A stretch of DNA of 64,000 nucleotides from Myxococcales bacterium 68-20 (lineage in GTDB: Bacteria > Myxococcota_A > Polyangia > Polyangiales > Polyangiaceae). Location of the stretch: assembly GCA_001899635.1 (NCBI GenBank), contig MKVQ01000042.1, positions 62,001 through 126,000 on the forward strand, read 5' to 3'. Each line of letters begins with the position of its first letter. The stretch's first letter is position 1. The notes under the pieces are model-generated. The model saw only the letters and a program-made list of their open reading frames with translations. It was not told the origin of the DNA and searched no databases. Shown piece after piece: positions 31,053 through 33,607 of this stretch. The translations under genes were made by a program, and so were the position numbers.

Positions 31053-31595
31053 ATGCGCATCCTCGGAGCTGCCGGCCTCTCGCTCGTCTGGGCTGGGCTC
31101 TTCGCCGTCGGCTGCCTCGACCTGCAGCAGGGCACGGACGGCGAGGACGGCGGCGCGACCGCGGCCGACGGCGGAGCCGACTCCGCCTCCCGCATCGTCG
31201 GCGGCGGATGCGGGACCGAGCAGAGCACCGGCGCTCAGCTCTGCATCGCGACCTCGCAGTGCCCGAACGTCGTCGTCGACACGCAGGCGATGCCGGGCTG
31301 CGGGTTCCGGATCCGCGGCGGAGTAGTCGACCTCGTCTGCGCGTGCGGGACGGCGATCTGCCCGATGGGCATCTTCTCGACCTGCGCGGAGGCCGCCCAG
31401 CTACTGGCGAACCAGACCGAGCAAGGCGTCTGCGTGCAGGTGGCGGAAGGCCGCTGCATGGAATCGTCGAGCGGATCTACGAGCAGCAGCAGCAGCAGCG
31501 GGTCCTCGAACGGCGGCAATCCGGCCTGCGACCGGCAGTGTATGAAGGACTGCGGCGGCGGCGAGGCCTGCGCGACCGTCTGCAACTGCAACTGA
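31053..31595 (+). CDS. Cysteine-rich lipoprotein with Ser-rich linker
   Basis: 180 residues. Lipobox GLFAVGC (Cys21) followed by an Asp/Gly-rich spacer (DGEDGGATAADGGAD). The core, about 50-138, has Cys in GGGCGTEQSTGAQLCIATSQC, GCGFRI, CACGTAICPMG and GRC. A Ser/Gly run (SSGSTSSSSSSGSS) encoded partly by six AGC triplets (31482-31499) precedes a last Cys-rich knot: CDRQCMKDCGGGEACATVCNCN. Probably a disulfide-bonded surface protein. The AGC run could vary in copy number by replication slippage, changing linker length in frame. No known family. Confidence 0.78.
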   Translation: MRILGAAGLSLVWAGLFAVGCLDLQQGTDGEDGGATAADGGADSASRIVGGGCGTEQSTGAQLCIATSQCPNVVVDTQAMPGCGFRIRGGVVDLVCACGTAICPMGIFSTCAEAAQLLANQTEQGVCVQVAEGRCMESSSGSTSSSSSSGSSNGGNPACDRQCMKDCGGGEACATVCNCN

Positions 31596-31773: not shown

Positions 31774-32397
31774 TCAGCTCTGGTACGCCTGCTTCACGAC
31801 CGGATCGGCGAGGGTCATGAGCGCCCAGATGCCGACGAAGATGTTCAGGTAGCAGCAGCTGCCGGTGCACGGGACCATGCTCGCGATGACCGCGACGTAG
31901 GCCATCGTGCGGTTCTCGAGGCGCATCATCTTCAAGAACGCCCAGATGCAGAAGGCGCTGAACAGCATGCCAACGACGTTCATCACAGCGCCCACTGCGC
32001 CGCCCATGATGCGCTGAAGCTCGTCGCCATCGCCCGACGCAACGCCGACGCCCGTTCCGACGATGTTCATGATCAGGCTCAGGAGCTGCATCGCCGCCCC
32101 GAGCCCCGTGCAGACCATCATCACGATCGCGGGCGCCTTGATTTTCGCCTCTGCAGCGCTTCGATCGCCAAACGGCGGCGGCGGGCCGCCAAAGCCCGGA
32201 GGACCACCGTAGCCCGGAGGAGGGCCGCCGAACCCGCCGGGAGGAGGGCCACCGAACCCGCCGGGAGGAGGGCCGCCGAACCCGCCGGGAGGCGGTCCGA
32301 ATCCACCTCCGGGAGGTGCTCCGGCCCCGCCGGGCGGCCCGTAACCGCCCGCGGCGGAGATGGAGGGAGCGACAGGACCTTCAGCACCAAGTGTCAT
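31774..32397 (-). CDS. Membrane protein with Gly/Pro-rich repeat N-terminus
   Basis: 207 residues. Residues 18-80 are a low-complexity PPGGFGG-type repeat region, encoded by 24-bp DNA repeats (32217-32288). After a charged RSAAEAKIK junction come about four membrane helices: APAIVMMVCTGLGAAMQLLSLIMNIVG, GGAVGAVMNVVGMLFSAFCIWAFLKMM, TMAYVAVIASMVPCTG and YLNIFVGIWALMTLADP. This resembles Gly/Pro-rich-tailed small membrane proteins common in Myxococcota and Actinobacteria; function unknown. The final helix pair (VGIWAL..LADPVVK) looks like a DUF4190/CD225-type small membrane domain. The palindrome array 32539-32807 lies just upstream. Confidence 0.8.
   Translation of the reverse strand: MTLGAEGPVAPSISAAGGYGPPGGAGAPPGGGFGPPPGGFGGPPPGGFGGPPPGGFGGPPPGYGGPPGFGGPPPPFGDRSAAEAKIKAPAIVMMVCTGLGAAMQLLSLIMNIVGTGVGVASGDGDELQRIMGGAVGAVMNVVGMLFSAFCIWAFLKMMRLENRTMAYVAVIASMVPCTGSCCYLNIFVGIWALMTLADPVVKQAYQS
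32217..32288 (-). repeat. Three 24-bp in-frame tandem repeats
   Basis: Units at 32217-32240, 32241-32264 and 32265-32288 differ by one base and encode the GGPPPGGF periodicity of the membrane protein at 31774-32397. A unit length divisible by three keeps the frame if copy number changes. Confidence 0.85.
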
Positions 32398-32538: not shown

Positions 32539-32807
32539 GTGAGGTGCTCGGACCTCACCGATCGATGCGCGCAGCGTCGTGCAAGGTCCCGCGACGTTCG
32601 CCTTCGACTCTTCGTGAGGCGGACGATGTCCCCGGCCCTCGCTTTCGCGGTCGGCTGCCGCATGTCCGAGGTCGGACGAGGCAGTCTTCGGCGGTTTGCA
32701 TGGAAAAGGAAGGTCCGCGGACCTTCCCTTTCGACATGCGTGTCGTCCGTGAAGGTCCTCGGACCTCGGCTACCGATGCACGTGTCGTTCACGATGTCCC
32801 GGGACCT
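32539..32807. repeat. Array of about seven palindromes with a ~42-bp period
   Basis: Palindromic cores related to AGGTCC-NN-GGACCT are centred near 32548, 32590, 32632, 32670, 32717, 32759 and 32800; the intervals are 42, 42, 38, 47, 42 and 41. The best, 32708-32727, is a perfect 20-bp palindrome; 32753-32766 is AGGTCCTCGGACCT; 32796-32805 is GTCCCGGGAC; 32664-32677 is GTCCGAGGTCGGAC. The spacers are also partly alike (TCGA..GCGTGTCGT.C), so the unit is about 42 bp, not just the core. It fills the gap between the genes at 31774 and 32843. Cores on one helix face (42 bp is four turns) would suit a cooperative DNA-binding protein; a chain of RNA hairpins is the alternative. Confidence 0.8.
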
Positions 32808-32842
32808 AAGTACGTCCTCGGTTCTGCCGGTGACGACAGGTG

Positions 32843-33607
32843 TCAGGCGGTCGGTGCGGCCGGTGTGGGCGCCTCGGGCGGCGGTGCCTCGACCGGCACT
32901 CCGCTGCCGCGCCGCCCCTGCGCCTGACGGAACTTGTCGACCGGGCTGACGGCGTGGCGGACGGCGGCGAGCGAGGATGGGTCGTCGTCGGCGTAGGCGA
33001 GCAGCTGGACGTTGTACGCCCCGATCGCCGCCGTGAGCTTGCGGAGAGGCTCGTCCAATGCGGGGACCGTCTCTCGTACGGCACCTGCCTTCGTGATCCC
33101 GAGGCCCTCGCCATAGCTGTGGTGCGCCTCCTGTACAGCCACGAGGAACTCCTTGCCTGCAAGGCCGTCGATCGTGGCCCCGAGCTTCCGCTCCTCGATC
33201 ACGTCGAGCCGGCGCTGGCTCTCGGCGTGCTCGGCGATGTACGGCAGCTTCAAGAACGCCAGCCCGTCGGGGAAGAGCAGCTTCAATACCTCGCCCGCAC
33301 GCGCCTGCTTGTCGGCGTGCTCGTCGAGCGCTTCCCAGGCGGCGACGCGCTCGTGGAGCGCCGCCCAGCGGAGATCGAGCTTTCGATCGAGGGGACGCAG
33401 ATCGGAGAGCTCCTCGACGCGCACACGCTGTCGCCACGCGCCTTCGAGCGCCTGTACGGAGGTGTGCATCCGCTTCGCGGCCTTCGTCACCGTCGCCGGC
33501 GCGTCCTTCGGCACGAGGGCGAGGAGCATCTTGCCGAGGCTGATCGCGTTTGCGACATCGAGTCGGGGCAAGCGCAGGTACGCCATCGGATCGAGATCGT
33601 CGGTCAT
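32843..33607 (-). CDS. Unknown helical protein
   Basis: 254 residues with a strong ribosome site (AGGGGGA, about six bases before the ATG at 33607). Mostly alpha-helical without signal peptide or membrane span. Notable segments are YLRLPRLDVANAISLGKMLL near the start, LKLLFPDGLAFLKLPYIAEHAESQRRLDVI in the middle, and VQEAHHSYGEGLGITKAG; the C-terminus is Pro/Ala-rich. The helical spacing suggests a four-helix bundle, and possibly a partner of a larger complex. I recognise no family. The palindrome array starts directly beyond its stop. Confidence 0.75.
   Translation of the reverse strand: MTDDLDPMAYLRLPRLDVANAISLGKMLLALVPKDAPATVTKAAKRMHTSVQALEGAWRQRVRVEELSDLRPLDRKLDLRWAALHERVAAWEALDEHADKQARAGEVLKLLFPDGLAFLKLPYIAEHAESQRRLDVIEERKLGATIDGLAGKEFLVAVQEAHHSYGEGLGITKAGAVRETVPALDEPLRKLTAAIGAYNVQLLAYADDDPSSLAAVRHAVSPVDKFRQAQGRRGSGVPVEAPPPEAPTPAAPTA

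Follow-up and report, generated by a model that had tools for sequence, protein, structure and literature searches.

The window, as the whole analysed stretch of 64,000 nucleotides from Myxococcales bacterium 68-20 is called here, contains a decayed array of seven palindromes with a period of about 42 bp (32542-32807). It is one of a class of arrays that are found next to the genes of an uncharacterised, multicopy protein family. The gene to which it belongs is the family member at 32843-33607 (minus strand) rather than the membrane gene at 31774-32397, which is rich in Gly and Pro. With a confidence just short of even, the array can be read as a phased DNA docking platform that is cognate to the gene at 32843-33607 and would be bound by a dimeric protein, most probably the product of this gene or a partner of it.

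The seven cores start at 32542, 32584, 32626, 32664, 32711, 32753 and 32794, and the intervals between them, 42, 42, 38, 47, 42 and 41 bp, are exactly those given in a preliminary description of this DNA. Six of the cores are of the type AGGTCC-NN-GGACCT and match AGGTCC-N-CGGACCT with zero to three mismatches. These are core 1 (AGGTGCTCGGACCT, 32542-32555, one mismatch), core 2 (AGGTCCCGCGACGT, 32584-32597, three), core 3 (ATGTCCCCGGCCCT, 32626-32639, two), core 5 (AGGTCCGCGGACCT, 32711-32724), core 6 (AGGTCCTCGGACCT, 32753-32766, none) and core 7 (ATGTCCCGGGACCT, 32794-32807, two). Core 5 is the centre of a perfect 20-bp palindrome, which had been pointed out earlier and is confirmed at 32708-32727. 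Core 4 (GTCCGAGGTCGGAC, 32664-32677) is a different palindrome, GTCCGA-GG-TCGGAC, unlike the other six and about 4 bp off register. The spacers are also partly repeated, and TRF, run over the window, did not report the array because it is decayed; the earlier characterisation as a decayed repeat of about 42 bp with partly conserved spacers is thus borne out. Since the spacers repeat along with the cores and none is unique, a CRISPR array was rejected, as it had been from the start. Counted over the entire window, the core pattern is no commoner than chance predicts (30 matches on both strands vs. 31.7 expected). It is the clustering that exceeds chance: six plus-strand matches fall within 270 bp, while 300 dinucleotide shuffles gave a maximum of five, and this only once.

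The core nearest to the family gene lies 35 bp past its stop codon, and the start of the Gly/Pro-rich gene lies 144 bp beyond the other end of the array. Pfam has no match at E<=0.001 for either neighbour, in agreement with their earlier designation as two unknown genes. Among the eight window proteins encoded at 27.8-37.2 kb, Pfam identified an M50 protease, a TerB-like protein and a phosphonate-binding protein, while five were without match; as far as these neighbours go, the earlier remark that there is no cas gene holds as well. Stretches of 3.8-11.6 kb from six genomes of the same genus were compared with this neighbourhood. The TerB-like gene and the gene at 31053 are kept in five of them and the TerB-like gene only in one. 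The Gly/Pro-rich gene, the family gene and a clear array were found in none of the six; the lag-42 signal of L252 is a 6-base coding-like repeat. The part of the genome that contains the window module therefore varies between members of the genus.

Homologues of the family protein were found in 26 of 58 genomes, the own genome included, with up to 12 matches per genome, and a profile search of the phylum found the family in 58 of 283 genomes. The named matches are metagenome bins labelled Deltaproteobacteria, Myxococcales, Polyangium, and Byssovorax. Arrays with a period of 40-44 bp, mostly 42-43, adjoin the family gene at 54 of 107 loci. Counted at lags 39-45, they were found at 33 of 68 loci from the relatives and at 21 of 39 loci from the phylum set, which comes from 18 other genomes and was collected after the pattern had been seen in the first set. 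The test was a local self-match of the flanks with lags of 25-65 allowed, and its threshold score of 24 was set after the first set of loci had been viewed. For the first set 75 of 82 matches were fetched, and the gene was not refound by tblastn at seven places (L092, which is the same place as L149, L093, L127, L138, L147, L148, and L150), leaving 68 with the window included. For the second set 40 stretches were chosen among the matches listed, and one of them (L240), which proved not to be a listed match and lacks the gene, was dropped; L155-L157 stand outside the tally, and the own genome has two further profile matches beyond those listed. Some of the family loci are orthologous, eight pairs having at least 70% protein identity.

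The controls gave no array of lag 39-45 at any of 30 dnaA loci, 106 window tiles, or 77 other tiles of the own genome; they include the window array and the array next to the own dnaA on contig C48, both of which are decayed and fall below the threshold. In 400 kb sampled from a single own contig there were four arrays of lag 39-45, two of them coding-like, corresponding to about 1.3 expected per 107 loci. At 53 of the 107 family loci no array exceeded the threshold. The window locus and L069, whose arrays are decayed, score below it, although both arrays are plain by eye. Some other sub-threshold loci seem to be truly without arrays, e.g., four copies from the same genus (L084, L086, L089, and L090). 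In these four, a family member stands directly before one conserved gene, which presumably encodes a ribosome hibernation factor, and they are perhaps a vertically inherited, array-free form of the family. No description of this pairing of gene and array was found among the best-ranked matches in the open-access literature.

The pitch of the arrays is narrowly distributed. The best lags of 56 arrays are 40 (one array), 41 (seven), 42 (22), 43 (25), and 44 (one), and four family flanks repeat at other lags. The median copy number is 4.4. Half of the arrays (28/56) are found upstream of the family gene and half downstream, at a median of 171 bp before the start (28 arrays) or 43 bp past the stop codon (27 arrays). 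The 3' repeat of L070 and the 5' repeat of L131 look coding, yet are counted among the 56, and L131 also among the 33 loci. These two and the coding or low-complexity 3' repeat of L220 were left out of the folding, co-divergence, per-event, and stem counts, while the L220 repeat was kept in the test of whole-unit symmetry. One family gene (L094, on contig C62 of genome G049) has different arrays on its two sides, with lag 43 downstream and lag 42 upstream.

With the pitch constant at about four turns, the sites would fall on the same face of the helix. A nucleoprotein assembly site of this kind, suggested earlier from the window alone, is now the best supported reading, as the period of 40-44 bp holds over 56 arrays of mostly unrelated sequence whose self-complementarity displays no strand bias. 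The same periods speak against translation. It had been remarked that both strands stay open, which means little in DNA so G+C-rich, and that the array might encode a repeat peptide. This was rejected because the periods of 43 (25/56) and 41 bp (7/56) are not multiples of three and because the array of the window includes steps of 38 and 47 bp.

The array had further been proposed to be a cooperative operator or nucleoprotein assembly site upstream of the Gly/Pro-rich gene. Assembly of a nucleoprotein complex is the part of this proposal that is now best supported, while the link to the Gly/Pro-rich gene has no support, as the arrays go with homologues of the other neighbour. That the array is a cooperative operator of 31774-32397 would agree with the 144 bp between array end and gene start, but the same architecture recurs in other surroundings with the family gene, sometimes before and sometimes after it, and at the second copy in the own genome the 3' end of dnaA takes the place of the Gly/Pro-rich gene. 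An operator of this gene is therefore very improbable.

While the pitch is kept, the sequence is not. The repeats are mostly unrelated between distant family members and similar between close ones, so that array similarity tracks protein similarity (Mantel r 0.51, reached in 0 of 2000 permutations). Such co-divergence is also expected from plain co-inheritance. GTCC-NN-GGAC is common to the arrays of the window, L069, L094, and L124, and GGT-N4-ACC to those of L077, L114, L078, and L100. Conservation in relatives, which the preliminary description had made a test of its interpretation, was thus found for the architecture, the sequences being others. A fixed pitch of about four turns in arrays whose sequence has drifted indicates a constraint of DNA geometry.

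Inverted repeats are found in the arrays beyond chance. Consensus stems of at least six pairs are present in 45 of 55 arrays vs. 45% of shuffled units, stems of at least seven pairs in 32 of 55 vs. 18%, and stems of at least eight pairs in 24 of 55 vs. 5%. Loop-less palindromes make up 12 of the 32 stems of at least seven pairs (15 of 32 under another tie rule), compared with 19 of 194 in the shuffles. Reverse-complement symmetry of the whole unit reaches p<=0.01 in 18 of 56 arrays, while in 34 of 56 it is absent even at p<=0.05. Against plain shuffles the mean folding z-value is -4.5 on each strand (57 arrays), but these values are inflated because shuffling breaks the repetition. A fairer control, in which shuffled units were tiled four times, gave means of -2.3 and -2.4 (55 arrays), with z <= -2 for 31 of 55 arrays on the gene strand and 30 of 55 on the other.

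The self-complementarity might alternatively reflect arrays that act as RNA, as a transcribed chain of hairpins. Such RNA could, e.g., be bound by the family protein in the manner of a guide or an antitoxin, or could serve as a stabiliser or terminator at the 3' end. The 28 of 56 arrays that directly follow the family gene could share its transcript, and a crude count over all inverted repeats leans toward G-T (436 vs. 386 expected, of 792). This lean is discounted because the counts are not independent, one change being counted many times; counted per event, one-sided changes are 42 G-T and 57 A-C (p 0.16), i.e., there is no G-T excess. The gene strand folds better in only 27 of 57 arrays (p 0.83), half of the arrays are found upstream of the gene, and the window has no Rfam match at the gathering threshold. 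Type III toxin-antitoxin loci such as ToxIN consist of one gene and a tandem array of repeats of about 36-45 nt, and a single gene with a tandem array is found here as well. In type III loci, however, the array is upstream of the toxin gene, and the arrays described here are found on either side of their gene, 28 of 56 downstream, that of the window likewise; there is no sign of a strand preferred as RNA, and no toxin family was matched by the family proteins scanned. On balance, RNA as the active form is unlikely. Of the earlier idea of RNA hairpins after the gene at 32843 the position holds, as the array does follow that gene, while hairpins are disfavoured by the equality of the strands. 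Hairpins cannot form without a loop, and G-U pairs are tolerated in RNA; the overrepresentation of loop-less palindromes, self-complementarity that exceeds the shuffles equally on both strands, and the lack of a G-U excess thus favour double-stranded DNA sites, even though palindromes are absent from some arrays.

The preliminary description had proposed a search for further copies of the window array, and a second one was found in the own genome (11.9 Mb in 52 contigs), at G000:C48:479807-480092 on the opposite strand, with 81% identity over 286 bp and directly 3' of dnaA. The block common to both places (32550-32939 in the window, minus strand; about 390 bp) has 77% identity over 399 columns and consists of the array and the last approximately 32 codons of the family gene 32843-33607. 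All 14 bases of core 7 are kept in the C48 copy, compared with seven of 14 in core 1 and eight of 14 in core 4; the five cores other than 1 and 4 keep 12-14. Cores are kept at 80% and spacers at 73%, a difference that is not significant (p 0.25). The best reading is that the window array is a worn gene-array pair with a second copy 3' of dnaA.

The position directly 3' of dnaA could suggest that the array is part of a replication origin. The site is unlike an origin, however, because the dnaA 3' flanks of the relatives differ and the sign of the GC skew is constant over C48:280-680 kb. An array like that of C48 was found at none of the dnaA loci of 29 relatives, and sites resembling DnaA boxes (a motif taken from general knowledge) are sparse, six in 400 kb. 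An origin is thus largely refuted, and we regard it as barely credible. A conserved dnaA-linked element was rejected as well, as the dnaA 3' flanks of the 29 relatives are other sequence. The dnaA gene itself (G000:C48:480128-481695) is found within 400 kb that show no change in GC skew, and it is possible that in this lineage the origin is not marked by dnaA. Another family gene has left a C-terminal remnant with a broken frame (profile E 6.9e-7) at approximately 468.87 kb of C48 (L271:8867-9020), some 11 kb away from the solo array beside dnaA; no clear array adjoins this remnant. In a relative with a single contig (L048, G030:C1) direct repeats of about 120-130 bp are seen by eye 3' of dnaA; they look unrelated to the arrays of about 42 bp.

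Arrays without a family gene are found elsewhere too. The array type of contig C33 in the own genome occurs again on C20 and C40, where the 7.5-8 kb around each array contain no family gene. No further copy of the C3 type was found in the own genome. In G037 the L121-type array is found at four loci (on contigs C7, C94, C85, and C71) with no family gene within 7.5 kb of each. The solo arrays on C20 and C48 retain the last 25-32 or so codons of the family gene. Contig C48 also carries two gene-less palindromic arrays with sequences of their own, at L270:2493-2605 (C48:442493) and L275:6228-6336 (C48:546228), with lags of 43 and 41, respectively; for the former, the own genome gave no further long match. 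Arrays that lack a gene could have a life of their own, and the gene 3' ends on two of them hint that gene and array have spread as a unit.

These observations recall mobile or selfish repeats of the REP/BIME kind, which likewise are extragenic palindromes, some beside a dedicated gene (RAYT) and others dispersed. The family gene would then aid the spread and the solo arrays on C48, C20, C40, and in G037 would be non-autonomous offspring, consistent also with the gene codons on two solo copies and with the window module missing from the stretches of six genomes of the same genus. REPs are, however, reported usually to exceed 100 copies in a genome (PMC2817692), while the four array types searched here were each found at between one and about six loci (the window type at two, the C3 type at one and the L121 type, in G037, at about six). 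The arrays differ further in their regular pitch of about four turns. No transposase, including the Y1 (HUH) tyrosine type, was matched by the window protein or 32 family members, the aligned pairs have no defined ends, and the copies in the own genome are old, with 71-81% identity. Mobility as the explanation for the arrays is thus doubtful, and appears slightly less probable than a function as RNA.

The window member of the family is a protein of 254 aa without Pfam, NCBIfam, or PADLOC match. AlphaFold2, given seven sequences, predicts an all-helical structure (pLDDT 84.6, pTM 0.50). No recognisable DNA-binding fold emerged from searches with this model: Foldseek found nothing in the PDB at E<=0.001, and VIA-align 2 gave middling Z-scores, at best 7.7, to helical bundles of various kinds, which is no higher than its documentation states for helical models. 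An hmmsearch of PDB sequences with the family gave no match below E 0.37. The family proteins are acidic, with a median pI of 5.75 and a charge of -4.6 (n=82; the window protein has pI 6.2), which does not favour simple DNA binding. There is a weak likeness to DUF6261 (PF19775), matched by six of 32 family members with a best E of 2.1e-5. The best-scoring member reaches 24.9 bits over residues 74-204, below the Pfam cut-off of 27, and the window protein has no match to this domain. Among the open-access papers searched, DUF6261 is named in a single one, which is unrelated by title. PHROGs gave two weak matches, each to a single family member, and a scan of viral contigs found no relative. A plasmid or phage module was rejected, as tblastn found no plasmid match for the window protein and neither a plasmid nor a phage match for the L114 protein.

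The design most similar to that of the arrays is found in sopC, the centromere (parS) of the F plasmid, which consists of twelve 43-bp repeats downstream of sopAB; every repeat contains an inverted repeat of 16 bp to which SopB, a ParB protein, binds as a dimer (PMC9178275). The period, the size of the palindrome and the position downstream of the gene of the binder, which for the arrays is a putative one, are all alike. The differences are that Pfam gave no ParB match for the window protein or 32 family members, and that none of the eight window proteins matched ParA. Furthermore, the family has many paralogues per genome with unrelated arrays, some of which are found 5' of the gene or solo, and no plasmid match. 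The resemblance is accordingly one of design only, not of membership. None of the gene-plus-array systems considered has its defining features here.

For a phased docking platform, the mechanism would be as follows. Dyad-symmetric sites at every four helical turns or so would allow bound dimers to align on one face of the helix, and the aligned dimers could then build a cooperative nucleoprotein complex. The likeliest occupant would be the family protein or a partner that it recruits. Paralogous pairs of gene and array may have drifted to separate repeat sequences with the pitch kept, and the gene-less arrays elsewhere may serve as targets in trans. By extension it is possible, at clearly lower confidence, that each paralogue of the helical family reads its own array of four-turn pitch and the matching solo arrays, giving a network of nucleoprotein platforms with a putative role in anchoring, silencing, or segregation. 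Such platforms might affect chromosome organisation, segregation, or expression.

The myxobacteria thus have an uncharacterised protein family that is physically tied to repeat arrays of its own, with many pairs of protein and site in one genome. If the proteins do not read the arrays, the strong linkage between gene and array requires another explanation. If they do, nature would have supplied a whole set of DNA-recognition pairs, independent of one another and based on an unfamiliar fold, and were the network to be real, this would be a protein fold without a known role in such platforms. In these bacteria, whose genomes are very large, the arrays and their proteins might then add a level to the organisation of the chromosome.
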